Source: Saprospiraceae bacterium (GTDB lineage: Bacteria; Bacteroidota; Bacteroidia; Chitinophagales; Saprospiraceae). Taken from it: a stretch of DNA of 35,977 nucleotides. Positions 6,718 through 28,842 of the stretch are shown here, one piece after another (position 1 is the stretch's first letter; every line of letters begins with the position of its first letter). The notes under the pieces were generated by a model. That model made no database searches and had not been told where the DNA came from. It saw only the letters and a list, made by a program, of their open reading frames with translations. The stretch lies in the NCBI GenBank assembly GCA_020628725.1, contig JAHDEO010000004.1:1-35977 (forward strand), given 5' to 3'. The translations under genes were made by a program, and so were the position numbers.

Positions 6718-7174
6718 TATTCTGAACTTACCTATTTCAAAAATCCTCTCCATTTCCCCTATCACATTTCACACCATTCAAAAAGTGACATAGTAAATTA
6801 CTTTAATTTATTTAAAAATAAATTTAAATATAATTTCATTTAAAAACATGATAAATATTTTTAATTTAAAATAAATTAAACACTCAAAAAATAATAAATT
6901 AAAAATAGTTTAGTGCTTAAATCACCTCCAAAAGCCTCAACACACTACACATAAAAATCATTTTTAATTCATAATCACCATTTTACCATGTCATTAAACG
7001 TGTGCTTTATTGACATGTAAAAACTTCCTTTCTAAGTACGTTTGCCGAGCAAACTCTCCTATGTGAACCACAAAAACCAACGCAACCAACCACTGTGTGA
7101 ATATTCATTCACTAATAAATCACATCCGAAAAATAATAGAACATAATTGCTCATTATCAAACACATTTAATATC
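6718..7174 (+). other. AT-rich spacer and leader of the metalloprotease gene
   Basis: A 457-bp stretch without a credible gene. From about 6790 to 6910 it is almost pure A/T (runs of TTTAAAT and AAATTTAA type), which may mark the right boundary of the AT-rich cassette. A GTG at 7097 opens the protease frame early, but the added 26 residues look like translated leader. I see no terminator hairpin directly after the DUF4435 gene. Confidence 0.5.
7010..7044 (+). promoter_or_regulatory. Candidate promoter of the secreted metalloprotease
   Basis: The -7 box TACGTTTG (7037-7044) matches TAnnTTTG exactly. A TTGAC at 7010-7014 could serve as the upstream box, though the 24-bp gap to the TA is a little longer than the usual 19-21 bp. 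It would give a leader of roughly 125 nucleotides before the ATG at 7175. Confidence 0.45.
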
Positions 7175-14480: not shown

Positions 14481-14510
14481 TAACTTCGTGTCATCCTCAC
14501 ACAAAGCTAA
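14481..14510 (+). promoter_or_regulatory. Shared promoter-proximal element of the T9SS paralogues, copy 1
   Basis: Starts with TAACTTCG, a variant of the TAnnTTTG -7 box, and continues into an inverted repeat CTTCGTGT/ACACAAAG, ending AAAGCTAA. The same 30-bp stretch with three differences lies at 28813-28842 before the paralogous gene. It is 131 bp upstream of the ATG at 14642. Confidence 0.6.
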
Positions 14511-14546
14511 ACACTGCTAGTCAATTTACTTTTCAAATACTATTAA

Positions 14547-14632
14547 TTAAGATTGGGACAGGTTTCAAGTTCAATTTATTTCTAACACAGAAAAAGATTG
14601 AAGCTCAAACTTCTACTTAAACTTAATCTTAA
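14547..14632 (+). promoter_or_regulatory. Possible folded 5' leader of the 609-residue T9SS protein
   Basis: TTAAGATT (14547-14554) pairs with AATCTTAA (14625-14632), and inside, GTTTCAAGTTCAAT pairs imperfectly with ATTGAAGCTCAAAC. The structure would end 9 bases before the start codon and could affect translation. No known riboswitch class is recognised. Confidence 0.3.
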
Positions 14633-14641
14633 ACACGAATT

Positions 14642-16471
14642 ATGAAGAACAATCTACTACTTACTTTTGCCTTGATGATGGGGCTGTTTACTTTGAATGC
14701 CCAAACAACCATTCTTGACTTTGAAACTCCGGCTACCACAGCTCAATTTGAATATTTCGGCAGCAGCCTTCCCGGAGGATTTATGGACGTAGCTATTGCC
14801 AATCCTGCACCCGGCGGCATCAATACGAGTGCTACGGTGGGGCAATTCGACAAACCGGCAGGTTCGGAAGTATGGGCAGGAGCATTTGCCGACCCTTCAA
14901 CCCTGATAGATTTTACAACAGACAACGAAATCTGTCTCAAAGTATGGCTCAACGAGCCGACCAACCTCCTTCTAAAGGTCGAAGGAAGTGCTAATGGTGC
15001 ACCCAACTGGGAATTTGCACAGCAAATTGATGATACACAGACATGGGTGGATGTGTGCTATAATGTTGAATCCCCTTCTGCTGCCGGACCTTTCCAACCT
15101 GCTACCGGAGGGATATACAGCCGCTTGGTTTTATTCTTTGATTTTGGGACGAGCCTTGGCGTTCCACAGGTTTATTATTTTGATGATATTACTGTCAAAA
15201 CCGGTGAGCTTCAAACTATAGATGTTACCTTCTCGGTCGATATGAGTAATTACACGGAGGCTTTTGATTCGCTTTTTGTGAGTGGTACATTCAATAATTT
15301 TGATGATAATTCTAATCCACTCGACGATAGCGATGGTGACAATGTATGGACAACAACAGTAGAAGGACTTGCTCCGGGCAATTACGAGTATTTATTCCAA
15401 TTGGATAAATTTGACATCATTGAAGATTTTAGCGATAAGTATTATGATTGCACCAATACAACTTTTGGTGGAGGCGGTGAAGTATTTATCAATCGCGTAT
15501 TAACTGCCGGTTCAACGACCACATTACCAACGGTTTGTTGGAATAGTTGCTATGAGTGCGGCGGGGCAATTACACTCACTTTCCAACTTGGTGAGGGTAC
15601 TGCCACACCAAGTCCTGAAGGTTTCTATGTAGCCGGCGGTGGCAACTTTAGCGTACCCGGAGCATTTTCAATGGCTAATAATGGTCAGGATATACATATC
15701 GCAAGATTCGAAAAACCCGTAGGTTTCGCTTCCTACTATACCTATACCAACGGTGCCTGTGGTGATTTTAGTTGCAAGGAGAATATTGCAGGTCAGCCCT
15801 GTGCCGACCCAAATAATTTTGACGATAGATTCTTGGGACCACTTACCGAAGATACATTTATCCGAGATTGCTTTGAATCATGTAATACCACTCTCATGGA
15901 CGGCAGCGACTGCCTCGCGGGATTGCCTATTGAGTTGCTATCTTTTACAGGTCGCAATATCAATGGCATCAATGAATTAGCATGGAAAACAGCAACGGAA
16001 GAAAATAGTGATTTCTTTGAAATACAGAAGAGTATAGATGGTGTGAATTTCGCAAGAATAGGTGTAGTTGATGCAGCGGGAGAGTCGCTTGTGACGCTTT
16101 CTTATACTTTTGAAGATGCTATGCCTGCCATCGGGAATAATTATTATCGTCTACGTATGGTAGATTTGGACGGTACATTTGAATACTCGAATGTTGTAAC
16201 AATCGCCACGCGACTTTATGGCGACATTTCGGTGTATCCTGTTCCTGCAAATGATGCTATTTATGTGGCTTATGAATCGGATAATACAAGCGAAATCCAA
16301 ATTCAAGTAGTTAGTTTTGTTGGACAAACACTACTCACACGCACAGAAAATACTGTACAAGGACTCAATTCCTTTGAATTAGATATCAGCCAACTCGCTA
16401 CCGGGACTTACCTCATTCAAATAACGAATGAAGATGGGCTTCCAATATCGAAGCGATTTGTGAAAAATTAA
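14642..16471 (+). CDS. T9SS-secreted multidomain protein with E-set-like modules (paralogue 1)
   Basis: A 609-residue exported protein. Signal peptide MKNNLLLTFALMMGLFTLNA; a jelly-roll-like first domain (about 22-190, opening TTILDFETP); an E-set/glycogen-binding-like module (about 193-280, DVTFSVDMSNY...VSGTFNNF); a third Cys-containing domain (about 299-420, with CYECGG and GACGDFSCKENI); an FN3-like domain common in Bacteroidota surface proteins (about 427-525, LPIELLSFTG...ELAWKTATEE); and a T9SS sorting tail (about 527-609, DISVYPVPANDAI). No catalytic motif is seen, so a glycan-binding or structural surface role is inferred. It shares the first three domains with the 620-residue protein at 28902. 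Confidence 0.85.
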   Translation: MKNNLLLTFALMMGLFTLNAQTTILDFETPATTAQFEYFGSSLPGGFMDVAIANPAPGGINTSATVGQFDKPAGSEVWAGAFADPSTLIDFTTDNEICLKVWLNEPTNLLLKVEGSANGAPNWEFAQQIDDTQTWVDVCYNVESPSAAGPFQPATGGIYSRLVLFFDFGTSLGVPQVYYFDDITVKTGELQTIDVTFSVDMSNYTEAFDSLFVSGTFNNFDDNSNPLDDSDGDNVWTTTVEGLAPGNYEYLFQLDKFDIIEDFSDKYYDCTNTTFGGGGEVFINRVLTAGSTTTLPTVCWNSCYECGGAITLTFQLGEGTATPSPEGFYVAGGGNFSVPGAFSMANNGQDIHIARFEKPVGFASYYTYTNGACGDFSCKENIAGQPCADPNNFDDRFLGPLTEDTFIRDCFESCNTTLMDGSDCLAGLPIELLSFTGRNINGINELAWKTATEENSDFFEIQKSIDGVNFARIGVVDAAGESLVTLSYTFEDAMPAIGNNYYRLRMVDLDGTFEYSNVVTIATRLYGDISVYPVPANDAIYVAYESDNTSEIQIQVVSFVGQTLLTRTENTVQGLNSFELDISQLATGTYLIQITNEDGLPISKRFVKN

Positions 16472-16499
16472 TTTTTGTTTTTTTTTATTGTGAAAAGAG

Positions 16500-16532
16500 A
16501 AGAGGATTTTGCGAGAGTAGAATCCTCTTTTT
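16500..16532. terminator. Terminator between convergent genes
   Basis: Stem AAGAGGATT (16500-16508) / AATCCTCTT (16521-16529) with a 12-base loop and T-run on the plus strand. On the minus strand it is followed by CTTTTC, so it may work both ways between the T9SS gene and the convergent lipoprotein gene. Confidence 0.75.
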
Positions 16533-16534
16533 CG

Positions 16535-17422
16535 TTAGATTTTAATGTCTTTAAAATTAGCATGGTGCCTGAAATAATTCGTGTAGATTCTTATTTTGGT
16601 CGATTCCGGGAAACATATATTTGACGCATTAAAATCGAATTCCTTTTCCATTATTAAATCTCCTTTTTCATCTAAAAGATAAATTTTCTGCTTCGATATT
16701 TTTGTGATGTCTGCATCTTCCAGTAAGGCAATTTTGCCGTCATTTGCTATGGCAATATCAATTATTTCGGTCTTACGCATTGATTTTTCCCATAATAACT
16801 CTCCATCATTAGAAAACCTTCTTATTATCCAGTTTTTTAAATAACTACCGTGTTCGTCGATATAACAAACCGCAAATTCGTCATTATTATTCAATGCTGT
16901 AGTTGGATAGTATAGGATATTTTCTCTTCCTGTTAATGATTTTTTCAAAAGGGTTTTCCCATTTTTATTCAACATTAAAATATGCTCTTTGGAAATACCT
17001 GTGTCGTCAGTAGTTCCCCAAAGTAGAATATTTCCATTAGGAGCAGTGGTTATTCTTATTCCGGGCTGTGACGATTTAAAAATTGGATTGAAGTAGTTGG
17101 TATTGAATATTTGTTTACCCTTTAGGTTTCTTATTTCTAAATAGAGTTTTTGATTACTCTTCCCTACTGCTCGATTGATTTGGTATAATCTATTTTGTTC
17201 TAAATTGGCGATTTCTTGCTGTTTTAAAGTTGTCCAAAACTTGCTTTCTTTAATCTGAATCAGGTGGTGGTTATCTTTAACTGCATGGATGCCCACAGAA
17301 TCACCTTTATAATCAAAAATAGGTCTTTCTACATCGTAACTATCAGGAAATGTGTCGGGTGTTTGTTCCCTAAGGCATGAGTTTAACATCAGTGGAATTA
17401 GCAACAAAAAATATGTTTTCAT
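16535..17422 (-). CDS. Lipoprotein with a probable beta-propeller fold, function unknown
   Basis: A 295-residue protein with a short hydrophobic leader and a lipobox (LMLNSC, Cys16), so it should be a lipidated envelope protein. The body consists of repeating strand-turn-strand units with phrases such as NGNILLWGTTDD, LMLNKNGKTLL, FSNDGELLWEKS, NDGKIALLED and LLDEKGDLIME, the look of WD/PQQ-like propeller blades. No enzyme residues are seen. It is slightly AT-rich and stands alone: the 165-bp foldback element lies 56 bp upstream of the start, so any promoter is within or close to that element. Confidence 0.75.
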   Translation of the reverse strand: MKTYFLLLIPLMLNSCLREQTPDTFPDSYDVERPIFDYKGDSVGIHAVKDNHHLIQIKESKFWTTLKQQEIANLEQNRLYQINRAVGKSNQKLYLEIRNLKGKQIFNTNYFNPIFKSSQPGIRITTAPNGNILLWGTTDDTGISKEHILMLNKNGKTLLKKSLTGRENILYYPTTALNNNDEFAVCYIDEHGSYLKNWIIRRFSNDGELLWEKSMRKTEIIDIAIANDGKIALLEDADITKISKQKIYLLDEKGDLIMEKEFDFNASNICFPESTKIRIYTNYFRHHANFKDIKI

Positions 17423-17477
17423 TTGCGTTTTTAGTTTATATGAGAATTATCAACTCTCCTCCTATATTCAACTTGGA

Positions 17478-17642
17478 TTATACTCTTTTAGGCTAAGAAT
17501 TAAACATTTTGACGGCAACTTTTCCACTTACTTTTCCCCTTGAAAACAGTTATTTATCCAGATAAACGCCCGTTTCCAAGAGAAAAATTAAGCGCAAAAT
17601 TCCCTCGTCAAAAAAGTTAAATTCTTAACCTAAAAGAGTATA
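17478..17642. repeat. 165-bp foldback element (MITE-like long palindrome)
   Basis: The two ends are 37-bp inverted repeats: the left arm 17478-17514 begins TTATACTCTTTTAGG, the right arm 17606-17642 ends CCTAAAAGAGTATA. Pairing continues inward (CTTGAAAAC against GTTTCCAAG) to a centre TTATCCAGATAA near 17556-17567, so nearly the whole element folds on itself. No open frame inside. Target duplications are not obvious. It separates the end of the anti-sigma-like gene and its terminator from the promoter region of the lipoprotein gene. Confidence 0.75.
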
Positions 17643-17648
17643 AAGATA

Positions 17649-17690
17649 CAAAAAAACCTCTGCACTGACTTTTCGGCGCAGAGGTTTTAA
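17649..17690 (-). terminator. Terminator of the sigma/anti-sigma-like operon
   Basis: Stem AACCTCTGC (17655-17663) / GCAGAGGTT (17678-17686). Read on the minus strand it is followed by a run of T (the A-run at 17649-17656 on the plus strand). It lies about 45 bp past the stop codon at 17735. Confidence 0.8.
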
Positions 17691-17734
17691 ATCAAATGAA
17701 ACCTTCTTTCATTTTGGAGTTTTACTTTGTCTTT

Positions 17735-19141
17735 TTAATCATTTTTCAAGCGGTATCTTAATCCAATTTGCAAACCGTAAAGCAAAGGACGAGTAGCTGA
17801 ATTGCTACTGTCAAGTTCCCAATTGGTGATGTACTTCGTCGTGATGATTTGTGAAAACAAATTGATATTTGTATTGAGTTGATAATTATAGTGGATACCA
17901 AAGCGCAAACCAAATTGACTCTTTTGAAATAAAGGATTGTTATCATCAAAAGTGATGACGTCAAGCTCGTCATTTAAGCGTTTTCCTTTGCTATTGAGTT
18001 GTAATAGATAAGATGCCCCGATGTAGCCGCCAAAGGACGATTTCTTTCTTATTATTTGGTCGAAACGATAGCCTAAACTCAGGGCATGTAGCTTGTATTC
18101 ATTATACTTTAGCTCACGATAACGACGAAAGCCATCTACCGTAACATCTCGTTCTGTTGAATAAAGTAAATTACCGGTTAGGCTGCTGACTACTTCGACC
18201 GTTTGGTTCCTTGTCACCTCTATCGGGCGCGTACCTTCGTAATCAAACAATTCTTTTAAAGCACTATATTGATAATCAATTTGGAAGGCATGTTTAGGAG
18301 AGAGGGATAAGCTCACTGATGGATTGAGGTGATAACCGGGAAAACCACTAACATGATCATGGTTGATATTAGTGGCGTCAAGGGCAGCCCAATTGGTCAT
18401 ACCTCCTGCAATACCCAACGATAGGTATTTTTTGAAGTTGGATGTTTTTATATGCTCCGGGGTACTCGTGGAAGCAAGATTGGATGGCTTGTTTTTAATT
18501 AGCTCGAAAGTTATTGCAGGTAATGTATTTACGTCGTTTGTTATTTCCTTTGCAACAGTAACTGATTTGGTATTTGATGGCTTAATTATTTCCTGTTTTT
18601 GAATTGTATTGACAATACGGCTGCTTGAAATATTTATTTTATTTTCCTCAGTTTTTTTGTTTTTCTCTGCTGTATAATTGATCGTTTCTTGGGGTATTTT
18701 TACAATCAATTTCTTTGTATTTGTATGTGTTAATTTGCTTGGTTTATTTTTCTTACTTACTGTTTTTTCTTGCTTTTGTTTGGGTTGAGAGCGTATATCT
18801 TCAACTGAATCAAGGTTGTTGTTTTGTGGTGAAGTCTTGGTTTTAGATTGAATGTTTTCTGAGTCAGTATTTATCTTTTTTGTATCTGCTTGATTGAATG
18901 TCGTGTGATTAATAGTAGTTTTTTCTTCGTTCAAATAATCTAATACAAACCAGCTACCCGTGCCGCCAGCTATCAACAATAGCAACAGCAACCAGTACCA
19001 AGGCCGATTATTTTTCTTCGGCTTGGTGGTTTGCATCTTTTCGTAGATGCCCTCTCTCATGTCGTCCCATCCGAACCCTTCGGGAAGCTCCGAGTGTTGG
19101 TCGAATTGGTCATTTTTCCAATTTGAGTTAAAGTCATCCAT
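17735..19141 (-). CDS. Anti-sigma-like membrane protein with a C-terminal outer-membrane beta-barrel domain
   Basis: A 468-residue protein encoded just after an ECF sigma factor with an 8-bp overlap. The cytoplasmic N-terminus (residues 1-46, GWDDMREGIYEKM) could bind the sigma factor. One membrane helix follows (about 48-67, WYWLLLLLLIAGGTGSWFVL). Residues 75-235 are a low-complexity Lys/Thr/Asn/Ser-rich linker. The rest (about 236-468) has alternating aromatic strands as in PorT-type or outer-membrane beta-barrel families (YLSLGIAGGM, HAFQIDYQY, SLGYRFDQI, LQIGLRYRL). It could span the periplasm and link an outer-membrane event to sigma release. The function is inferred from architecture and position; no sequence match to a known anti-sigma domain is claimed. 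Confidence 0.75.
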   Translation of the reverse strand: MDDFNSNWKNDQFDQHSELPEGFGWDDMREGIYEKMQTTKPKKNNRPWYWLLLLLLIAGGTGSWFVLDYLNEEKTTINHTTFNQADTKKINTDSENIQSKTKTSPQNNNLDSVEDIRSQPKQKQEKTVSKKNKPSKLTHTNTKKLIVKIPQETINYTAEKNKKTEENKINISSSRIVNTIQKQEIIKPSNTKSVTVAKEITNDVNTLPAITFELIKNKPSNLASTSTPEHIKTSNFKKYLSLGIAGGMTNWAALDATNINHDHVSGFPGYHLNPSVSLSLSPKHAFQIDYQYSALKELFDYEGTRPIEVTRNQTVEVVSSLTGNLLYSTERDVTVDGFRRYRELKYNEYKLHALSLGYRFDQIIRKKSSFGGYIGASYLLQLNSKGKRLNDELDVITFDDNNPLFQKSQFGLRFGIHYNYQLNTNINLFSQIITTKYITNWELDSSNSATRPLLYGLQIGLRYRLKND

Positions 19142-19679
19142 ATAATTCTCTTTGAACGTTATCTCTCAAATAACGCTTGGTCCATTTTTTAGCGCGAGCC
19201 AGTTGAGAGCGGGAAGTTGCTTCGCTAATATCAAGTTGCTCGCCAATCTCTTTATGCGTGTATCCGTCAATGACAGATAACATAAAGACCATCTTGTATC
19301 CGCCGGGCATATTGTTGATGATCAACTCAATATCTGACCGCTTCAAATCTGTAGGAAGGGGTGTGTCATCCTTTATATCAAATGATGCTTCAATAATTTT
19401 TGCACCATTCAAGGGGCGTTTTTTTCGGGTGTGTTGCAGACACTCATTAATCGCAATTCTCTTAATCCAGCCTTTAAAATTTCCTTTTTGGGGGTCGAAT
19501 TGCTTAATGTTGATAAATACTTTTGCAAAAATTTCCTGCATAATATCCTTTCGGAAATCTATATCGCTGATATACCTTTTCACATGACTGTACACGTAGG
19601 GCGCGCAGTCTTTGTACAACTGTGCGTGTCCACGTTCTAACCCCTTTTTGCACCATTCTATATTCTGCGAATCAGTCAA
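19134..19679 (-). CDS. ECF-type RNA polymerase sigma factor
   Basis: A 181-residue sigma-70 family factor. Region 2 is at about residues 20-88 (DFRKDIMQEIFAKVFINIKQF, then GNFKGWIKRIAINECL) and region 4 at about 122-175 (MPGGYKMVFMLSVIDGYTHKEIGEQL, then the recognition helix SEATSRSQLARAKK). No region 3, as expected for ECF factors. The start codon is backed by the usual ECF length. Its stop overlaps the downstream membrane protein start by 8 bp, an arrangement typical of sigma/anti-sigma pairs. The promoter was not identified; the lipoprotein gene ahead is closed off by a strong hairpin. Confidence 0.92.
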   Translation of the reverse strand: MTDSQNIEWCKKGLERGHAQLYKDCAPYVYSHVKRYISDIDFRKDIMQEIFAKVFINIKQFDPQKGNFKGWIKRIAINECLQHTRKKRPLNGAKIIEASFDIKDDTPLPTDLKRSDIELIINNMPGGYKMVFMLSVIDGYTHKEIGEQLDISEATSRSQLARAKKWTKRYLRDNVQRELYG

Positions 19680-19741
19680 ATGCTTTCTTTTTTACAAAGT
19701 GTTTAAAATTCCAAGTGGTTATTGTTTACGGAAAATATAGT

Positions 19742-19769
19742 ATCTGTTCCGCCCGGAGGCGGAACAGAT
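19742..19769 (-). terminator. Hairpin terminator after the repeat lipoprotein
   Basis: Perfect 12-bp stem ATCTGTTCCGCC / GGCGGAACAGAT with a 4-base loop, 10 bp past the stop codon of the lipoprotein gene. The T-tail on the minus strand is weak (ACTATATTTTCC); on the plus strand TATTTTT follows, so it may be bidirectional. Confidence 0.65.
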
Positions 19770-19778
19770 TATTTTTGC

Positions 19779-20987
19779 TTATTGACAGTTATATATATAT
19801 TCGAAGTAAGATTCAATGTCCTCAAAAGTCACTTCATTTCCTGTTTCGATTTCAGTGACCGTTACAGGTAAAACAACTTCGTGAAAACCCGGCGTACTGC
19901 TAAGATATACTTCAGCGGCAGCAGCATCTTCTATGCTTCCGGTTTCTCCTGTTTCGACATCTATATACTCCAGTGGATAGTTGACAGAATAACATGCGTC
20001 ATCAGTCGGAAAGACATCTGATATAAGCAAGAAGAAAACCAAATCCAATCCGGTTCCACCACCTGAATAGCCCCAACAATCTGCCCAGGCTGCCTCAAGT
20101 TCTTCCAAGTTATTTACAACGAGTTCTTCACCACCGCCATTGGCTAATGTCAAAGGAAAAACAAACTCTAATTCCAAACCATAAAGGGCAGCACTACAAA
20201 GATCTTCGTGACTATTAATTTCGTAAACATTGCCATCTTGGTCAACCATGCTGAATGGATAAGTGAAATCCCAGCAATCGTCATTATCAGGATTGCCGCC
20301 ATCCGGATTGTCTACTCCACCCTCACAATCAAATAAAAGCACAAATAATTCATCTACATCGTTGGCTGTTACGGTATTTCCTTCATCATCGGTAAGACTA
20401 AGTGGAAATTGGAAAAACAATATATCTTCGTAACCGGAAATCAAGTCGATAAACTCATCTTCATCATTAGCAGTAACAACATTGCCATCAAGGTCAACCA
20501 GATTTACAGGGTAAACCATTTGGTAGCAAGAGCTTTCCTCGTCAATTAAGAAGGCAGGGAAGAAATTTTCATCCCAACCATCATCAGGAACACAAGAAGC
20601 AAAGGCTTCTCCTAAAGCCTCTCCATCAGCAATCGACGCTGTTGTTCCATCTACATTATACGTGATATTTATCGGATAGACGAAATCTACGTATTCTGCT
20701 TCCGGTTCATTGATTAATACTGCTTCAAAATCTTCGATACTACCGATGGTATAAGTTGTTCCATCTACGATAAGGTCGAAAGGAAAGTCTATTGAAAAGC
20801 ACCCCAAGTCCAATCCGTCGGTTGCACCGCCGGTTTCCATTTTATATACCAGTGGGTTAGTTATTTGTGTTTCTGTGGGTACTTGTGGGATAACGTCATC
20901 TACCTGAGAAATTTCCTCTTTTTCGCAAGAAGAAAAAGCTAAAAGCATAGCCAATATACCAAAGAGAAATAATTTCGAATAATTCAT
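19779..20987 (-). CDS. Lipoprotein built of eight degenerate repeats
   Basis: A 402-residue acidic lipoprotein (lipobox AFSSC, Cys21; many Asp/Glu). The mature part is eight units of about 35-50 residues, each starting with a strand of the type FxFP or YP and then a DGxxxxxxxxEEL helix: CFSIDFPFDL, DFVYPINI, CYQMVYPVNL, FFQFPLSL, CWDFTYPFSM, EFVFPLTL, CYSVNYPLEY, EVVLPVTV. Odd-numbered units begin with Cys, even-numbered ones lack it and often end in Cys, so units may be joined in pairs. No catalytic motif. Position upstream of the sigma/anti-sigma pair may be chance, since a strong hairpin lies between them. Surface or envelope role inferred. Confidence 0.8.
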   Translation of the reverse strand: MNYSKLFLFGILAMLLAFSSCEKEEISQVDDVIPQVPTETQITNPLVYKMETGGATDGLDLGCFSIDFPFDLIVDGTTYTIGSIEDFEAVLINEPEAEYVDFVYPINITYNVDGTTASIADGEALGEAFASCVPDDGWDENFFPAFLIDEESSCYQMVYPVNLVDLDGNVVTANDEDEFIDLISGYEDILFFQFPLSLTDDEGNTVTANDVDELFVLLFDCEGGVDNPDGGNPDNDDCWDFTYPFSMVDQDGNVYEINSHEDLCSAALYGLELEFVFPLTLANGGGEELVVNNLEELEAAWADCWGYSGGGTGLDLVFFLLISDVFPTDDACYSVNYPLEYIDVETGETGSIEDAAAAEVYLSSTPGFHEVVLPVTVTEIETGNEVTFEDIESYFEYIYNCQ

Positions 20988-21402
20988 TTTTTTAATTTAA
21001 TATTGATTGAATAAATTGTGTTTTTTGCGGAAATCTATGCTCTTTTGTTGTTATGATAGTTTCAATCGATAAAAAGTAGCTATTATCATCTTTTTGGGCG
21101 AGCTCATCATACTATATGCGAAAAGACACCATTTCGCTGCACATCAGTAAAATAATTTGAAAAAAATAAAGCTCGTATGGAAAACTACTTGAAACAAACA
21201 CCCACCAAAATATTGATTATCAATTATTTAATAAAAAAATAGCGATATACGATATTAATACATTTAGATTGATTTAAATGCGGATTATTCGTTCCGTAAA
21301 TTCGCAACTTATTTATAAAACAATCGTTTATGCTCTAGTGCTATTATCTACTCAAAATTTAAATGGGTTCTTATCTAATCAATAATCCTAAGCCACGTTA
21401 TA
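20988..21402. other. Divergent spacer between repeat lipoprotein and sensor kinase
   Basis: 415 bp without a gene, AT-rich, carrying the start regions of two divergent genes. The only motif I can name is TAAATTCG at 21297-21304, a TAnnTTCG-type -7 box for the kinase gene, similar to the boxes at 14481 and 28813. I see no clear repeats or hairpins. Confidence 0.4.
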
Positions 21403-23490
21403 TTGACTTCTAACATATTTCATAGAATTTTCCTTGCTGCCATTTTTTGTAGTTTATTGAGTCATACCTTACTCATAGGGCAGTCTGATGCCATTGAACA
21501 GTTGGAAAAATTAGAACAATTTATCCCGGAAATGACCTCCGATACGGCAATGATAAATGCATATAATAAACTGAGCTACGATTATTATATGATAGACATT
21601 GATAAGACAAGACTATATAGTAAAAAAGCATTAGAAAAAGCGAAAGCAATAGACTACAAATACGGAATTGCCCAAGCACTCAACTATATGGCAATAAGTC
21701 ATGGCGTAAAAGGAGATGCATTGGGTGCCATTAAATTGAACAAGCAATCTTTGGAAATTGCACTTGAGATGAACAATCCGCTCTTAGTATCCAATTGCTA
21801 TAATGATTTGGGGATTTCATATCATGATATCAACTTCCCGGAAAAAGCCTTGGAAGCCTATCAAGAATCTTTAAGATATTCAACCCTATCTAATGATGAC
21901 AAATTAACTTGCTTTACACTTAATAATATTGCTATAATCTACCACGAATTAGGTGAAAAAAAAATAGCCCAAGAATATTATGAACGAATCATAGAAACGG
22001 CTCAAAATAGCGACCATAAAATGGTTCAGTATTATCCCTCATATATTACAGCGGAAAGATTGATGGAAGAAGGAAAATACGCCCAAGCCATGGAATCCTA
22101 CAATGTAGCTTATGAGAAGGCTTATGGATATTATCAAAAGTCAGAAATCTATTCAGCGCAAGCCTATCTTTTGCAATTACAAGAGAAATATGATGAAGCA
22201 GAAGCTAAAATACTCGACGCCATCGCATTATCCAATAAAATGGGTGATAACGAGATCGCATTTTCAATATTTAGCCATTGTGATATTCTAATTAAAAATC
22301 GAAAGTATAAAAAAGCGATAGCTAAAATAAACACCCTCTTATCAGGGAAATCAGATATTCCGGTAAATCTTTTACAGCGAAAAGAACTCATTGAGTTGCG
22401 TATTAAAGCCAATAAAGCAATCGGTAACAACCAAGCAATAGCGGATGATTTTGAATTGTTTTCACAACTGCAAGACAGCATATCTTCAAAGGAAAGATAT
22501 AGGATAATGTCTGAGATGGAAGTCAAATATAAAATCGAAGAAAGCGAAAGAGAAAACCAATATTTGCGCAAACAAAAAGACCAAGCTGAACTGCTTTTAA
22601 GCGAGCAGAAAAAAAACATCTACTACTTACTCGGACTTATTCTTTTGGGTGTGTTATTAGCCATATTACTTTACAAGTCTCTCCAAAATCACAAATCATT
22701 CAATACCGAACTCAAGAAGCAAGTAGATGACCAAACAAAAGAACTCAAAAAGTCAAACCAATTGTTAAAAAGCTCGAATGAAGAATTGGAGCGATTTGCA
22801 TTTATTGCTTCTCATGACTTGAAAACGCCTTTGCGCACTATCATTAGTTTTTCGGGTTTGATTGAACGAGAACTTAAATCAGATGAAGACAAAACAGTAC
22901 ATGAATACCTCACAATAATCAAAGATGCAGCTAATAGAATGAATAATCTTATAGTTGATGTCTTGGAATTTTCACGGCTTTCTTACTTAGAAAAAGAAGC
23001 CGAAACAGAAGTCATAAATACCAATAATTTGCTCCATGAAATATTGAACTCATTATCAGATTATATTGAAGGAAGAAATGCTAAAATCATAAATACCAAC
23101 AAGTTACCATCAATAAGAGCACACAAATCTTCTATTACCGTATTATTTCAAAACTTAATTGAAAATGGTATCAAATACAATGATTCCGCTATTCCGATTA
23201 TAAAGGTATATGCCACAGAATCCCCGGAATTTACATCCATTTTCTTTGAAGATAATGGAATCGGAATTGCTGAGGAATATCACGATAGGATTTTCATTAT
23301 GTTTTCCCGATTACATACGCATGCCGAATATGAAGGCAGTGGGCTTGGGCTTTCCATTTGCAAAAAAATCATTAATAATCTCAACGGCGACATCCTACTT
23401 CACGGCGAAGAAGGCAAAGGCAGTACTTTTGAACTTAGGTTGCCACATGACATAATCGTCCAGCAAGCATCCGATGCAGACAATACCTAA
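21403..23490 (+). CDS. TPR-containing sensor histidine kinase
   Basis: A 695-residue kinase. I accept the TTG at 21403 as start because the signal peptide (NIFHRIFLAAIFCSLLSHTLLIGQ) begins there, a stop codon lies upstream at 21376, and the next in-frame ATG is beyond the leader. A periplasmic TPR array covers about residues 30-330 (ALNYMAISHGVKGDALGAI, CYNDLGISYHDINFPEKAL and similar), then a coiled coil, a membrane helix at about 407-427, a second coiled coil, the HisKA domain with His471 (FIASHDLKTPLR), and an ATPase domain with N-box (NLIENGIKYND, about 583), G1 (DNGIGIA, about 617) and G2 (GSGLGLSI, about 645). There is no fused receiver and no response regulator gene nearby, so its partner is encoded elsewhere. 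Confidence 0.9.
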   Translation: MTSNIFHRIFLAAIFCSLLSHTLLIGQSDAIEQLEKLEQFIPEMTSDTAMINAYNKLSYDYYMIDIDKTRLYSKKALEKAKAIDYKYGIAQALNYMAISHGVKGDALGAIKLNKQSLEIALEMNNPLLVSNCYNDLGISYHDINFPEKALEAYQESLRYSTLSNDDKLTCFTLNNIAIIYHELGEKKIAQEYYERIIETAQNSDHKMVQYYPSYITAERLMEEGKYAQAMESYNVAYEKAYGYYQKSEIYSAQAYLLQLQEKYDEAEAKILDAIALSNKMGDNEIAFSIFSHCDILIKNRKYKKAIAKINTLLSGKSDIPVNLLQRKELIELRIKANKAIGNNQAIADDFELFSQLQDSISSKERYRIMSEMEVKYKIEESERENQYLRKQKDQAELLLSEQKKNIYYLLGLILLGVLLAILLYKSLQNHKSFNTELKKQVDDQTKELKKSNQLLKSSNEELERFAFIASHDLKTPLRTIISFSGLIERELKSDEDKTVHEYLTIIKDAANRMNNLIVDVLEFSRLSYLEKEAETEVINTNNLLHEILNSLSDYIEGRNAKIINTNKLPSIRAHKSSITVLFQNLIENGIKYNDSAIPIIKVYATESPEFTSIFFEDNGIGIAEEYHDRIFIMFSRLHTHAEYEGSGLGLSICKKIINNLNGDILLHGEEGKGSTFELRLPHDIIVQQASDADNT

Positions 23491-23535
23491 TGCTTCGATT
23501 CATAAATAATTTTCAAGCAAATAGACTTCATATTA

Positions 23536-23856
23536 CTAAAGTTTCGGATCCGGATTCAAGGTATTCACACCACCATCTTGCACCAATAACATATGCATCG
23601 TAGATGAAGCATGACGAAATTTCATAGCTTCTTGATACTCCGGGTCATTAAACCATGCTTCAATACTGGCTTTATCAGGAAATTCCAGAATAACCATTCT
23701 ACCCTCGTACGGCGTGCCTTCCATAGTCGTTACCTCTTCACCGCGCGTTAAGAATTTGCCGCCGTATTTTTTTACTATCGGTGGAGTTCGGTCTGTGTAC
23801 TTGCTGTATCCTTCAGGGTCATTGACGGTCATCATTGAAATTACGTAAGTTGACAT
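23536..23856 (-). CDS. DUF1330 family protein
   Basis: A 106-residue protein with the DUF1330 pattern of a ferredoxin-like alpha/beta-barrel dimer: strand YVISMMTVNDPEGYSKY, then GGKFLTRGEEV, then MVILEFPDKASIEAWFNDPEYQEA and a C-terminal strand HMLLVQDGG. Length fits the family (about 95-105 residues). Members are small cytoplasmic proteins with no settled reaction. It is the last gene of a minus-strand run, 60 bp after the leucine-dehydrogenase-like gene. Confidence 0.85.
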   Translation of the reverse strand: MSTYVISMMTVNDPEGYSKYTDRTPPIVKKYGGKFLTRGEEVTTMEGTPYEGRMVILEFPDKASIEAWFNDPEYQEAMKFRHASSTMHMLLVQDGGVNTLNPDPKL

Positions 23857-23916
23857 AGATTTAATTTTAGATACAGGGATTACATTATAGCGTAGTAATA
23901 CTTTGATTTACAAATA

Positions 23917-24966
23917 TTAATTCTTACCATTAGCAATAATCTCCAAAGCCATTCTATCTGCTACCTCGGACGTAGGGCTATTTTCATTTCTCGCTTTTTC
24001 CAAAAGCTTCATAATCGTATCGTATAATCCCAATACTCTATTTCTCGAATCTTCCATTGAAGGTTGGGAAAAAATCCTCGTTCCTGCGCCCATCATTCCA
24101 CCTGCATTCACCACATAGTCGGGTACATAGGTAATACCTTTTTCCATCAGCATAACACCATGCTGTTCGGATGCGAGTTGGTTATTGGCGAGTCCGCAAA
24201 TGGCTTTTGCTCGAATTTCGTGAATGGAAGTATCATTGATAATACCGCCCATCGCACAAGGCGCAAAAATATCGACCTCCAAAGCATGTATTTTATCCGG
24301 CGATACGGGCGTGGCATTATAATTATCGACGACATATTGAAGTGCCGTTTCGTTAATATCCGTTACAAACAACTCAGCGCCAGCCTCATACAATTGACGC
24401 GACAAATCCCGCCCCGTTGCACCAAGTCCCTGTATAGCTACTTTCATTCCTTTCAAATCCGACTTCCCCCAAACGTGTTGAGCAACCGCCCTTATGCCCG
24501 TAAAACCACCCAAAGCCGTAAACAAAGACGGATTAAATCCTTCGGGATATTCGCTGGCTCTGGCAAAAATATAATCGCAATTTTCGGCAAGTATATCAGC
24601 ATCTTTCGGACCGACACCCACATCTATAGCCGTCCAATATCTGCCGCCCAGCGATTGTACATGTTTCGAGAACGCCCTCAACAAATCAGCTTTATCCGGT
24701 CGCTTAGGGTCAGCTATAATGACGCATTTACCGCCGCCCAATGGCAGTCCCGCCATCGCGTTTTTATAACTCATTCCCTTCGACAAGCGTAATACATCCT
24801 TCAAAGCCGCCTCGGTAGATGCGTAAGGAAACATTCGACAACCTCCCGCAGCCGGACCAAGTGCCGTGCTGTGTATGGCAATAATTCCATAAAGCCCGAC
24901 CGCATCATCATGACAAAACAAAACTTGTTCGTGGGTATCAAAATCAATTTGTGAAAAAACGGACAT
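23917..24966 (-). CDS. Glu/Leu/Phe/Val dehydrogenase, leucine-dehydrogenase type
   Basis: A 349-residue amino-acid dehydrogenase that would deaminate a branched-chain or aromatic amino acid to its 2-oxo acid with NAD+. The substrate site Lys68 (MSYKNAMAG) and catalytic Lys80 (LPLGGGK) hold exactly the numbering known from Bacillus leucine dehydrogenase, and the glycine-rich GGCR at 41-44 lies before them. The Rossmann motif is GLGATGRD near residue 184, and the segment PCAMGGIIND follows. Leucine and phenylalanine dehydrogenases cannot be told apart by eye; leucine/valine is more common in Bacteroidota, where the enzyme feeds branched-chain acid synthesis. In the minus-strand run after the quinone oxidoreductase gene, across a 170-bp spacer with a large hairpin. 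Confidence 0.88.
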   Translation of the reverse strand: MSVFSQIDFDTHEQVLFCHDDAVGLYGIIAIHSTALGPAAGGCRMFPYASTEAALKDVLRLSKGMSYKNAMAGLPLGGGKCVIIADPKRPDKADLLRAFSKHVQSLGGRYWTAIDVGVGPKDADILAENCDYIFARASEYPEGFNPSLFTALGGFTGIRAVAQHVWGKSDLKGMKVAIQGLGATGRDLSRQLYEAGAELFVTDINETALQYVVDNYNATPVSPDKIHALEVDIFAPCAMGGIINDTSIHEIRAKAICGLANNQLASEQHGVMLMEKGITYVPDYVVNAGGMMGAGTRIFSQPSMEDSRNRVLGLYDTIMKLLEKARNENSPTSEVADRMALEIIANGKN

Positions 24967-25022
24967 CTAAATTTGTATTTGAAAATGGTTTTGGTAAACT
25001 TTGTAGAATCAATTTGCCCGCC

Positions 25023-25098
25023 CGCACCTTATCCTAAAGGAAACCACACGCAAACTGAGGTGTGTGGAGCTTATCCCTTTAGGGAATTAAAGGGTGCG
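25023..25098. repeat. 76-bp imperfect hairpin between minus-strand genes
   Basis: Nested inverted repeats: CGCACC (25023-25028) pairs with GGTGCG (25093-25098), CCTAAAGG with CCCTTTAGGG, and CCACAC with GTGTGTGG around the loop. The frame that runs across it (24973-25161) is not credible as a gene. Its position suggests either a REP-like element or an mRNA processing/attenuation structure ahead of the leucine-dehydrogenase-like gene. Confidence 0.6.
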
Positions 25099-25136
25099 CG
25101 AAGGCAATTTCACGAGATTTTTCAAAGAACCCAAAA

Positions 25137-26111
25137 TTACGGAATTAAAACAATCGGCTGAGTCGTCTTTCTCGAAGCCAACATTTCATGTGCTTTTGCG
25201 GCATCTTTTAATGGCAATTCGATAGGTACTCGCGGCTTTATTTTTCCGCTCAATAATGACGCAAAAAGAGCCTTACTCATATCCAATAATTTATCCCTCT
25301 TTCGGATATAATGAAAAATCATTGGTCTGGATAAAGTAGAAGACTTTTTAGCTAACATTGGAATTTCAAAACCCTCAATCGGACCGGAAGATTGTCCAAA
25401 ATTGACCAAATGCCCCTCAAATGCTAAGGACGCTAAAGAATCATGAAAAGTATCTTTTCCCACGCTATCATATACAACATTGAGTCCCTCGCCGTCCGTG
25501 ATTTTCATGACGCTGTCCAACACCTTTTCTTCCCTATACAAGATAATATGGTCGCACCCCAGCTCCGTCGCTATCTTTGCTTTAGCCTCTGAACCTACCG
25601 TGCCGATAACCATCGCTCCCATTTGTTTGGCTGTCTGCACCAATAGCTGTCCTACTCCCCCGGCGGCAGCGTGTACCAAAATTCGGTCATTGGCATTCAA
25701 GCGAACTACTTGATTCACCAACATTTGCACAGTCAGTCCTTTAAGTATAACAGCAGCGGCAGTAACATCACTTACTTCATCAGGAATAGGTACTGCTATG
25801 GCAGCGGAGATAGTGCGTTCAGAGGAATATCCTCCATATTTTGAGGTGATATAAGCGACCCTATCACCAACATTGAAGTCCTCGACATCTACTCCTTTTC
25901 CCATGACTATTCCTGCTCCTTCAATGCCCGGAATACCCGGTAAAGCTAAGGTTTTATACAAACCTGAACGACAATAAATATCATGAAAATTAATCCCAAC
26001 GGCAGTTTGTTGAATCAGTAATTCATCAGACTTTGGAACAGGAGAAGGGATTGTTTCTAACTGGAGGACTTCGGGGTCGCCATATGTTCTAACTATGATT
26101 GCTTCGGGCAT
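25137..26111 (-). CDS. Zinc-free MDR oxidoreductase, NADPH:quinone reductase-like
   Basis: A 324-residue medium-chain dehydrogenase/reductase of the quinone oxidoreductase (QorA) branch. The N-terminal GroES-like domain has GINFHDIYCRSG and LPGIPGIEGAG; the Rossmann domain carries HAAAGGVGQ (residues 147-155), the usual nucleotide motif of this branch. The structural-zinc cysteines of alcohol dehydrogenases are absent, as expected. It likely reduces quinones or enones with NADPH in the cytoplasm; the true substrate is open. The next gene upstream on the same strand (BNR protein) ends 45 bp away, so co-transcription is possible. Confidence 0.88.
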   Translation of the reverse strand: MPEAIIVRTYGDPEVLQLETIPSPVPKSDELLIQQTAVGINFHDIYCRSGLYKTLALPGIPGIEGAGIVMGKGVDVEDFNVGDRVAYITSKYGGYSSERTISAAIAVPIPDEVSDVTAAAVILKGLTVQMLVNQVVRLNANDRILVHAAAGGVGQLLVQTAKQMGAMVIGTVGSEAKAKIATELGCDHIILYREEKVLDSVMKITDGEGLNVVYDSVGKDTFHDSLASLAFEGHLVNFGQSSGPIEGFEIPMLAKKSSTLSRPMIFHYIRKRDKLLDMSKALFASLLSGKIKPRVPIELPLKDAAKAHEMLASRKTTQPIVLIP

Positions 26112-26156
26112 GGTTTAGTTTTTATTTTCTGATAATAAATTTTTCTTAGAGGCTGT

Positions 26157-28073
26157 TTAAAACGTAACTCCAAGTTTTTTCAACGTATCATAATCTAAAT
26201 TGCCTTGCGGTAGTTTGTGCTTTTTTTGAAATTCCAATACAGCATTTTTCGTCTTTTCGTCCAAAATTTCGGTTACTTCGACTGCGTAGCCTCTTTCTTT
26301 TAATGCTTTTTGAACATTCCTTACAAAAGGCAATCTTATCGGCTTCCATGATTTTCCTCCATCCTCGGTTACATACTCTCTTTTCGAATGAGAAGACATC
26401 CCATACCCTTTTACAAAACCGGTTTTATCGTCTTTAAAATAAAATTCATTGGGATAAAAATTCGCCGGATAGGTAATTTCCTTACTATTTTCATCATAGG
26501 TTATCAGAGTATCTACTGTAAGATTTTCATCTGTCCAAGTCAAAAATTGTACAGAACCCTGTTTTGATTTGATATAAATGCTGTCTTTTGACCTGATGAA
26601 AATATCGCTCAACAATTCGTTTTCCCAATTATACAGCAAATTCCAATTCAAAGTATCATCAGAATACAGTAATTTACCGGTAGAAGTTGTATCATATCCA
26701 TATGCAAATAATCTATCTTCAAAAGTGTCAATTTCCATTATATAGGTTTGCTTCAAAATTTCAGGTTCATAATAAGCGTAGTTTTTAGTATCAAAATACA
26801 AAAGGTTAGAGGCTACCCCCTCAAGTTTTTGAAAACGACTCTCAAAAAAAAGAACTATAAAATCGCCGACAGTTTTGGGATAAGGTCGGTATGATGTTCG
26901 AAAACCCCACGAATGTCTGTCCAATCCCTCATAGAAGTAATTTTCGGCTACTCTGTACCACTTGTCACTTTTAAGCATGTATATTCCATCAAAATAATGA
27001 TTGTATCCAAACTTTGTATCGCCAAATTCATGGATATACCGAGGCGGTTTTATCTCAATATCATATGTAAATAAGTGGTTTTTTTTGCACTCAAAACTAT
27101 GTGGTGTGATTCTGTAAAAATCATCAAAATTTGTTTGGGCATAAACAGTATCGTCAATGATTTGCCAATTAAAATGAGAAAGTCTTAATACCGAATCTCT
27201 TACTGCGATATGCTCGTCAAAAGACTTTAAATCATCGTCAAATTTCACAAAGTCGCCTTTTTTACTCCGCCCAAATAGACAGTTTGTTTCCCTATCTAAT
27301 TTCAAGCTGGAAAATTGGTTATCAAAAAAGGGTTGCCAGATAGTATCTCCATACATTGTAGAGAAATGTTCACTTGATTGCCTGACTATCAAATGGTTAT
27401 TGTATAAAAAAACATGGTTTATGCCTTGATTCTTAGCAAGCTTTTGGTCATGTGGAGTGGGTATTTTTATAGAAGTTTCAAAATTATCTCTTGTAATAAT
27501 GATGTAGTTATTAAACATAATCGCTACACCTGTACTATCATTTTGCATAGCCACTTCATCCACATAATCAGTAAGATGTTTGGTTGTCCAAGTAGCTCCA
27601 AGGTCTTCCGAATAGTATATAGTGCGTTCACTACCCACTAACCAAATTTTACCATTTCCTAATTGAAAAAGCTCGTTAAATCCTCCCCAATACTGTTCTT
27701 TTGTGTATCCAACAATTGTTTTCTCCCACGTTACACCTCTATCGGTGGTCCTTTGAATAATCAAAGGCTTTTCATTTTCCGTTCCATCCAATCTATTTGT
27801 TTTATGTGCTAACCAAATATCGGAATTGATAAATTCCAAACTTATCCGCTTATTTTTTTCTCCGTTTTGATAAATAAAATCCTCCTGTCTCCAATATTTA
27901 TCTTCAAATTCTTGACTGTAAACATGAGCATCATCAAAGAACATCAATTCCCCTTGTGGAGTCACATATAAATCCCACAATGTTTCTAATTTTATAACCG
28001 CACTCGAATCAAGATTTTGCCCGAATACCGGCAAAACACAAAGTACGAAAATGAGTATTACGATATTTCTCAT
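26157..28073 (-). CDS. Exported BNR beta-propeller protein with C-terminal peptidoglycan-binding domain
   Basis: A 638-residue exported protein. Signal peptide MRNIVILIFVLCVLPVFGQ. Three Asp-box (BNR) motifs are visible: TTDRGVTW (109-116), SEDLGATW (155-162) and TEDGGKSW (569-576), marking sialidase/photosystem-stability-type propeller blades. The last 55 residues (584-638, VQKALKERGYAVEVTEILDEKT... LEFQKKHKLPQG) form a peptidoglycan-binding-1 domain. No sialidase catalytic FRIP/RIP motif, so enzyme activity is doubtful; a wall-anchored sensor or binding role is more likely. The GNAT gene stop lies 7 bp upstream of its start, so the two are in one operon. Confidence 0.8.
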   Translation of the reverse strand: MRNIVILIFVLCVLPVFGQNLDSSAVIKLETLWDLYVTPQGELMFFDDAHVYSQEFEDKYWRQEDFIYQNGEKNKRISLEFINSDIWLAHKTNRLDGTENEKPLIIQRTTDRGVTWEKTIVGYTKEQYWGGFNELFQLGNGKIWLVGSERTIYYSEDLGATWTTKHLTDYVDEVAMQNDSTGVAIMFNNYIIITRDNFETSIKIPTPHDQKLAKNQGINHVFLYNNHLIVRQSSEHFSTMYGDTIWQPFFDNQFSSLKLDRETNCLFGRSKKGDFVKFDDDLKSFDEHIAVRDSVLRLSHFNWQIIDDTVYAQTNFDDFYRITPHSFECKKNHLFTYDIEIKPPRYIHEFGDTKFGYNHYFDGIYMLKSDKWYRVAENYFYEGLDRHSWGFRTSYRPYPKTVGDFIVLFFESRFQKLEGVASNLLYFDTKNYAYYEPEILKQTYIMEIDTFEDRLFAYGYDTTSTGKLLYSDDTLNWNLLYNWENELLSDIFIRSKDSIYIKSKQGSVQFLTWTDENLTVDTLITYDENSKEITYPANFYPNEFYFKDDKTGFVKGYGMSSHSKREYVTEDGGKSWKPIRLPFVRNVQKALKERGYAVEVTEILDEKTKNAVLEFQKKHKLPQGNLDYDTLKKLGVTF

Positions 28074-28080
28074 ATTTGTT

Positions 28081-28683
28081 TTAATTTGCGATTATTTTCC
28101 TTCTCAATTCCTCCCTCACACGTCCATCCCATTCCTCCCACAAAATACTCATCAAAACAATATCTACTCGTTCATTCCCATCCACACCCGGCATAAAACT
28201 CCGCAATACGCCCTCCTGCGTACAGCCCACGCTACGCATCGCGTGTATGCTATGTACGTTTTCAGCACTCGCGCCAAAACCTATTCTTTTCATGTTCATT
28301 TGGTCAAATAAAAATTCAAAAAGCAGGTATTTACAATTTTTGTTCAGTCCCGTTCCGTGAAATGCTTTGCCTATCCAAGTGTGTCCTATTTTGGCATTTT
28401 TCAAATCATTATTTACTTCATAAATTCTGGTAATACCTGAGTATGTATCGCTTCTTTTATCCTTAATGACAAATGGATATTCGAGTCCTTGTTTTCGTTT
28501 TTGAATAGCATTTAAAACATAGCGTTCAAAATTTTCTCTACCATAACCATGCTCAATAAAATACGTCCAAATCTCCTTATCCTGTGAGACTTCGAGCAAT
28601 GAGTCGATATGTTCTTCCTTCAAAGGACTTAACTCAACGACCTCATTTTCTATCAAATATACTTCTTCAAAATTAAATTTCAT
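28081..28683 (-). CDS. GNAT acetyltransferase, RimJ/RimL-like
   Basis: A 200-residue acetyltransferase with the RimL-type order of elements: VVELSPLKEEHIDSLLEVSQD at the start, IGHTWIGKAFHGTGLNKNCKYLLFEFLFD as the acetyl-CoA-binding loop and helix, then MNMKRIGFGASAENVHSIHAMRSVGCTQEGVLR (the typical N-x-x-S-x-x-x-x-x-x-x-G motif). Acceptor could be a ribosomal protein N-terminus, another protein or a small amine. First gene of the minus-strand run and divergent from the 620-residue T9SS gene with a 218-bp spacer. Confidence 0.87.
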   Translation of the reverse strand: MKFNFEEVYLIENEVVELSPLKEEHIDSLLEVSQDKEIWTYFIEHGYGRENFERYVLNAIQKRKQGLEYPFVIKDKRSDTYSGITRIYEVNNDLKNAKIGHTWIGKAFHGTGLNKNCKYLLFEFLFDQMNMKRIGFGASAENVHSIHAMRSVGCTQEGVLRSFMPGVDGNERVDIVLMSILWEEWDGRVREELRRKIIAN

Positions 28684-28812
28684 TTATGTATTAATCATTT
28701 AAAATCAAAATTTAGAGCTGTACATACCAAATATAACTACTCCAAAGAATGTTAAAATCCAACTAAAGTTCTAAAAAACTGTTCATTTCAAATGAATATC
28801 CTGATTTTTTAC

Positions 28813-28842
28813 TAACTTCGTGTAATCTTTACACAAAGCTAA
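28813..28842 (+). promoter_or_regulatory. Shared promoter-proximal element of the T9SS paralogues, copy 2
   Basis: Begins TAACTTCGTGT and ends ACACAAAGCTAA, with an inverted repeat CTTCGTGTAA / TTTACACAAAG that fits nearly end to end. It differs from the copy at 14481-14510 in three of 30 bases, all in the middle. It is 60 bp before the ATG at 28902. The first eight bases fit a TAnnTTYG -7 box; the inverted repeat would then lie at or just after the transcription start, a place for an operator. Confidence 0.6.

Follow-up and report, generated by a model that had tools for sequence, protein, structure and literature searches.

The window, the whole 35,977-nucleotide stretch analysed here (positions 1 to 35,977 of contig JAHDEO010000004.1, Saprospiraceae bacterium assembly GCA_020628725.1), carries two copies of a 30-base element, each ahead of a gene for a secreted protein of the type IX secretion system (T9SS). 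The features of both loci are listed below; papers are cited here and throughout from excerpts of their text.

14481..14510, + strand: putative promoter-operator, copy 1 (TAACTTCGTGT-CATCCTC-ACACAAAGCTAA), from sequence scan and site alignment
14481..14488, + strand: putative -7-like box TAACTTCG, copy 1, fitting TAnnTTTG at -12 to -5 (PMC9723704), with a predicted transcription start at about 14493
14484..14506, strand-neutral: 23-bp palindrome CTTCGTGT-N7-ACACAAAG, copy 1
14642..16471, + strand: T9SS type A secreted protein of 609 aa with a sub-threshold CBM48 match, its ATG 135 nt past the palindrome
28813..28842, + strand: putative promoter-operator, copy 2 (TAACTTCGTGT-AATCTTT-ACACAAAGCTAA), from sequence scan and site alignment
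28813..28820, + strand: putative -7-like box TAACTTCG, copy 2, on the same basis as copy 1, with a predicted transcription start at about 28825
28816..28838, strand-neutral: 23-bp palindrome CTTCGTGT-N7-ACACAAAG, copy 2
28902..30764, + strand: T9SS type A secreted protein of 620 aa with AMPK1-CBM/CBM48 domains, its ATG 63 nt past the palindrome

The two 30-mers are identical at 27 of 30 bases and lie where the original prediction had placed them; all three mismatches fall within the 7-base spacer. Comparison of the flanks gave no match, in agreement with the claim of unlike surroundings, and both genes behind the element are T9SS type A paralogues (PF18962, TIGR04183) with a mutual identity of 44%. 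The inverted repeat proposed within the 30-mer is present in an imperfect form, with 7 of 8 arm positions pairing and C opposite A at the remaining one. When 3 mismatches at most were tolerated, TAACTTCGTGT-N7-ACACAAAGCTAA was identified in only two places of the window, both exact, the mean of 100 shuffles being 0.00.

The genus sample comprises six genomes of an uncultured Saprospiraceae genus, the window's own (G000, 7.2 Mb in 683 contigs) and five congeners (G001-G005). The exact form ACTTYGTGT-N7-ACACRAAG occurs in four places of the window's genome: the two described, one preceding a SusC/SusD pair (C491) and one 24 nt upstream of a GH81 glucanase gene (C171). The palindrome scan of this genome gave 15 rows, formed by these four places, their four opposite-strand duplicates and seven rows for five more places (C385, C404, C457, C550 and C582), where C550 is a box at prs of the type linked below to nicotinamide adenine dinucleotide (NAD) and C385, C404 and C582 are undecided or chance. 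Exact copies are present in all five congeners. A scan of the genus permitting up to 3 mismatches anywhere identified 14 sites of TAACTTCGTGT-N7-ACACAAAG with one mismatch at most, spread over six of six genomes. Its 28 rows (13 in the control) comprise these 14 strict sites, five opposite-strand repeats, one SusC site at 2 mismatches (G005:C89), three sites at prs, two at pyk and gap, and three judged chance (C582, C516 and G005:C53).

All 14 strict sites lie 23-275 nt ahead of the start of an open reading frame (ORF), with start codons picked by eye, and are oriented toward the gene, so that the genome scan proposed originally gave non-random positions. The genes are T9SS relatives of the window genes in eight cases, SusC in three, GH81 beta-1,3-glucanase in two and a sugar-isomerase-like gene in one; the fifteenth site, with 2 mismatches and identified in G005, is 88 nt upstream of a SusC gene. 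Two types of SusC stand behind sites, with 40% identity. One match (G001:C25) sits within an ORF. These sites, their recurrence, their orientation and the genes behind them are direct observations. In G005 a site is flanked by two sugar-isomerase-like TIM-barrel genes that point away from each other, and it may serve both directions; an MFS transporter and a Gfo/Idh/MocA oxidoreductase are encoded close by (L056:781-8103).

Outside the genus a single match with one mismatch was identified in 4 of 54 genomes (G006, G015, G019 and G022), compared with 7 of 54 for the reversed control. A public genome collection gave 31 matching stretches, 9 from Saprospiraceae metagenome-assembled genomes (MAGs) and 22 from Firmicutes. 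The spacer of the latter reads C...G in 21 of 22 and so carries the palindrome further inward, a feature that the genus sites do not share; that of Dysosmobacter (L088) differs. The Firmicutes matches, being dispersed palindromes with another type of spacer, were set aside. Many palindromes of the form AACTTCGTGTC-N5-GACACGAAGTT occur in MAGs of Defluviitaleaceae as well as in Hydrogenoanaerobacterium saccharovorans (L059-L063, L065, L068, L071-L078, L081, L082, L084, L086-L089); they are probably a dispersed palindromic repeat family. A protein search of the genome contigs for relatives gave 70 pattern matches, none of them confirmed.

The element could instead be a dispersed repeat or have been left behind by gene duplication: the two window genes are paralogues, and a few Firmicutes genomes do hold a near-identical palindrome in many copies. 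However, the flanks differ, the Firmicutes spacer is of the other type, and GH81, SusC and isomerase-like genes carry the site too, in a fixed orientation. Recent duplication, named in the original prediction as a finding that would speak against it, did not hold on these grounds; the duplication relic was rejected, and the explanation as a whole is hardly credible. Recurrence before unrelated glycan genes in six of six genus genomes favours instead the common operator, set on a -7-like box, that had been proposed for both surface proteins. That the element is an operator and that the surface proteins share its control are well supported.

Joint control with SusC/SusD was also proposed, and here the outcome was mixed: SusC/SusD pairs elsewhere carry the site, whereas for the window's own pair (31244, 34488) the window scan gave no such site. 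The window also encodes, at 7097-12904, a 1935-aa T9SS metallopeptidase (M12/reprolysin-like) with many repeats of the DDGDACT...DSDQDGVCDAEDVCP type and a GEVED domain.

The 15 aligned sites share an invariant left part of 11 bases (15 of 15), a slightly variable right arm, and flanks that differ by gene class. The alignment was gathered with a pattern fixing TAACTTCGTGT and ACACNAA, and the free scan with up to 3 mismatches is the less biased evidence. The palindrome is CTTYGTGT-N7-ACACRAAG, with GTGT-N7-ACAC as its core, and the four mismatches tolerated among the 15 sites are all in the right arm, outside ACAC. The -7-like start attributed to the 30-mer was borne out, as TAACTTCG fits TAnnTTTG and is present in 15 of 15 sites, gathered with a search pattern that favoured the box. 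In Flavobacterium psychrophilum the TAnnTTTG box occupies -12 to -5 (PMC9723704). On this spacing the palindrome would cover about -9 to +14, the position of a repressor; a dimer sitting there, over the -7 box and the predicted start, would prevent initiation.

The same anatomy can be read as that of a special core promoter served by an alternative sigma factor, with the right arm as a 5' leader signal and the palindrome incidental. In its favour, no part is more constant than the left 11 bases, every site is turned toward its gene, and TTCGTGT contains the CGT of an ECF-type (extracytoplasmic function) box known in Flavobacterium (PMC9723704). This is nevertheless improbable: the right arm ACACNAA is constant too and mirrors the left arm as its reverse complement (in a search pattern that favoured both arms), the tolerated mismatches spare ACAC, there is no conserved upstream element, and TAACTTCG fits an ordinary -7 box as well. 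A hairpin at the transcript start had been offered as the other meaning of the inverted repeat, which has 8-base arms and a 7-base loop; such a hairpin would regulate stability or translation. Of 14 distinct sites, however, 13 have one of the eight arm pairs open, and no pair covaries. If the -7 box occupies -12 to -5 (PMC9723704), the predicted start falls in the loop, and a transcript beginning in this spacer would not include the left arm; the hairpin found no support and its probability is very low. The Bacteroides Crp-type consensus wwwTATGTTnTAnAACATAwww, as excerpted, does not fit the element, the half-sites being different and the centre of odd length.

A candidate reader is an AraR-like protein of the NrtR family, the second of this family in the genus, encoded in five of six genomes (the window's own, at G000:C148:405-1121, and four of five congeners). 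It is a Nudix and NrtR winged-helix regulator whose best PDB match is BtAraR (2e-54). BtAraR operators read GTGT-N7-ACAC, the residues defining GTGT have been named and the structure has been solved on DNA (PMC4666351). The BtAraR residues Asp178, Lys179, Arg180, Asn181, Arg183, Lys184 and Arg205 are retained. The Nudix motif is eroded, with Glu residues of REUXEE substituted in the five genus proteins, as judged by eye on the alignment. Of the three arabinose-holding residues of BtAraR, Arg86 and His131 are retained and Arg34 is replaced by Ser in the G000 protein, and the effector is therefore expected to be a sugar other than arabinose. The regulator gene lies directly ahead of a T9SS alpha-amylase gene in G000 and G004.

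The favoured explanation, with a probability of about 0.64, is that the 30-mer is a promoter-operator read by an AraR-like regulator of the NrtR family that co-controls surface glycan-capture genes. The AraR-like protein is the most likely reader, at similar odds. The left end of the 30-mer would serve as the -7 box (TAACTTCG), overlapped by the 23-bp palindrome that also covers the predicted start. An AraR-like dimer, with a degenerate Nudix sensor domain and a winged helix, would bind GTGT-N7-ACAC and exclude RNA polymerase until it is released by a sugar that glycan breakdown yields. The genus regulon would comprise T9SS proteins, GH81, SusC/SusD and the sugar-isomerase-like gene, and some genes of glycolysis and glucose-phosphate metabolism may also be controlled through a second box, TTAGTGTA-N5-TACACTAA. 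Promoter activity, repression, the reading protein of the genus and the effector are all deduced in this scheme.

Several observations weigh against it. The wing residue Lys204 of BtAraR is His in the AraR-like protein. GTGT-N7-ACAC was identified neither upstream of the regulator gene in the five genus genomes carrying it nor ahead of the adjoining amylase gene in G000, and 9 of 30 orthologues from the wider family lack the box. The AraR-like gene was not found in the G005 assembly, which has three strict sites and the NAD-type NrtR only, and the aroE neighbourhood of G005 is without it, unlike those of G001, G002 and G003, which keep the gene there. On the promoter side, no conserved -33 TTTG element is present upstream of the 15 aligned sites, and masking the operator sites leaves TAnnTTTG only a little more frequent in sense than in antisense orientation ahead of genes (66 vs 49 in 156 regions). 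The -33 element is likewise not identifiable in F. johnsoniae (PMC7366714, as excerpted). The TTCG form was counted 26 times in sense and 13 in antisense with operator sites included, falling to 13 vs 9 once these are masked, and the support from it is therefore weak. In G000 and G004 the regulator gene is kept beside the amylase gene; the corresponding contig of G005 stops 380 bp upstream inside a repeat, and therefore an assembly gap is possible. This congener has a repeat of ~130 bp with inverted ends on two contigs (L158:3060-3190; upstream end of L169), one of which breaks off within it shortly before the amylase gene.

With operator and regulon unchanged, the reader could be another protein, namely the NAD-type NrtR paralogue, the LacI-type protein at C491 or some other factor, which is possible but rather unlikely. 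The case for it begins with G005, where sites are present and the NAD-type protein is the sole NrtR-type protein found. Boxes of the same architecture, TTTGTGT-N7-ACACAAA, precede prs in the genus (C550 in G000, C494 in G004 and C10 in G005), and those of G004 and G005 lie downstream of a Nudix winged helix-turn-helix gene of the NrtR family, the NAD-type paralogue, whose Nudix motif looks intact. But the genes behind the strict sites are glycan genes rather than NAD genes, and the NAD-type NrtR was not found in G002, a genome with sites that is 69% complete. The prs boxes (L118:2060-2135; L136:2776-2851; L022:199-224), together with ATTGTGTA-N5-TACACTAA boxes before nadA (L261:2350, L262:1438 and L263:3232), likely form the regulon of this NAD-type protein. 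In favour of the LacI-type protein, its gene and the SusC gene of C491 are divergently oriented; it has, on the other side, a palindrome of its own, the perfect GTTTAAACGTTTAAAC just ahead of it (L003:1656-1671), and by eye no LacI gene was seen beside the other sites read. The C491 LacI-type protein was rejected as reader on these two points; the C491 SusC/SusD locus may be under two regulators.

The second box form, TTAGTGTA-N5-TACACTAA with up to 2 mismatches, was identified at 49 genus sites compared with 26 in the control, and therefore about half may be chance. Gene context was read for 32 of the 49, 20 of them newly fetched. These 20 include three within ORFs (L277, L278 and L280), three without a clear sugar link (L270-L272) and three at nadA, which come from three genomes and are probably NAD-type. 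The box recurs at orthologues of beta-phosphoglucomutase (three genomes), GMC oxidoreductase (three) and pyruvate kinase (two). Other sites are ahead of enolase, GAPDH, PEP carboxykinase and a SusC-like gene, and one (C491:12755) is 41 nt ahead of a sodium:solute symporter gene. The badF gene of the genus has the box in G005 only; part of the region upstream of it in G000 reads N.

In the wider family, the G006 orthologue of the regulator has matches in 156 of 199 genomes (E up to 1e-40). Among the 30 best-matching orthologues, 21 carry GTGT-N7-ACAC within 400 bp upstream of their own gene, nine other spacer lengths totalling three, and none of the 30 carries it inside or downstream of the gene. 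A tree places the genus AraR-like proteins as sister to the family orthologue clade and separate from the NAD type; it was built by a quick method, with BtAraR on a very long branch and of unsure placement. The link of the regulator clade to GTGT-N7-ACAC in other genera is directly observed. Of 10 family genomes, 9 carry the form TAGTGT-N7-ACACTA, at 23 sites altogether, with none in the reversed control. Five are the regulator's own box, and 15 of the other 18 precede sugar, glycogen or SusC genes: a BadF-like gene with pfkA (seven genomes), AMPK1-CBM-type proteins (three, one checked by profile and two by eye), SusC/SusD (one), and GlgB, GlgE, phosphoglycerate mutase and aldolase (one each). 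Three places have no clear target (L225, L228 and L234).

A broader proposition, to which even odds are given as a whole, is that across Saprospiraceae a Nudix-type sugar sensor of the NrtR family represses central sugar metabolism as a whole and that in this genus its operator is split in two forms. The targets would be phosphofructokinase, aldolase, phosphoglycerate mutase, glycogen enzymes and SusC/SusD in other genera, and enolase, pyruvate kinase, GAPDH and beta-phosphoglucomutase in the window's genus. Of the two forms, TTAGTGTA-N5-TACACTAA would serve glycolysis and TAACTTCGTGT-N7-ACACAAAG, fused to the -7 box, secreted glycan capture.

Saprospiraceae are glycan degraders known largely from metagenome assemblies, and little is known of gene switching in them. 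With a defined operator and a named candidate regulator, the link of surface glycan capture to glycolysis and glycogen by one Nudix-type sensor becomes testable, and the operator yields a rule by which the glycan regulons of uncultured relatives can be predicted. The open-licence literature gave no paper connecting such a regulon with Saprospiraceae or with the NrtR family, which does not imply absence from print, and on NrtR/AraR Nudix sugar regulators of Bacteroidetes only PMC4666351 and PMC3878776 were found in it.

The closest known system is the arabinose regulon of BtAraR (BT0354) in Bacteroides, where AraR and XylR are sugar repressors of the NrtR family (PMC3878776). Both systems have the operator core GTGT-N7-ACAC, a Nudix-like sensor with a winged helix, the DNA-reading helix KRNFRK, an eroded Nudix motif, and SusC/SusD and glycan enzymes as targets, predicted ones in the genus (PMC4666351). 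Compared with BtAraR as excerpted, the genus differs in the outer operator bases CTTY/RAAG, in the fusion of the operator to a -7 box, in predicted targets that concern glucans and glucose metabolism and not arabinose, in Ser for Arg34 in the G000 protein, and in a regulator gene without an autoregulatory site. The NrtR repressors of NAD metabolism, such as MsNrtR, belong to the same protein family and share the 23-bp palindrome with a 7-base spacer (GTTTTCGA-N7-TCGAAAAC), whereas their half-site is another and their targets are NAD genes (PMC6800001, as excerpted). Within the genus, the NAD-type paralogue is distinguished from the AraR-like protein by its intact-looking Nudix motif and its separate boxes at prs. 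SusR and the hybrid two-component regulators of Bacteroides likewise control SusC/SusD and glycan enzymes, but the sites predicted for them consist of direct repeats set apart by long spacers, whereas the genus site is a compact palindrome (PMC3878776, as excerpted).

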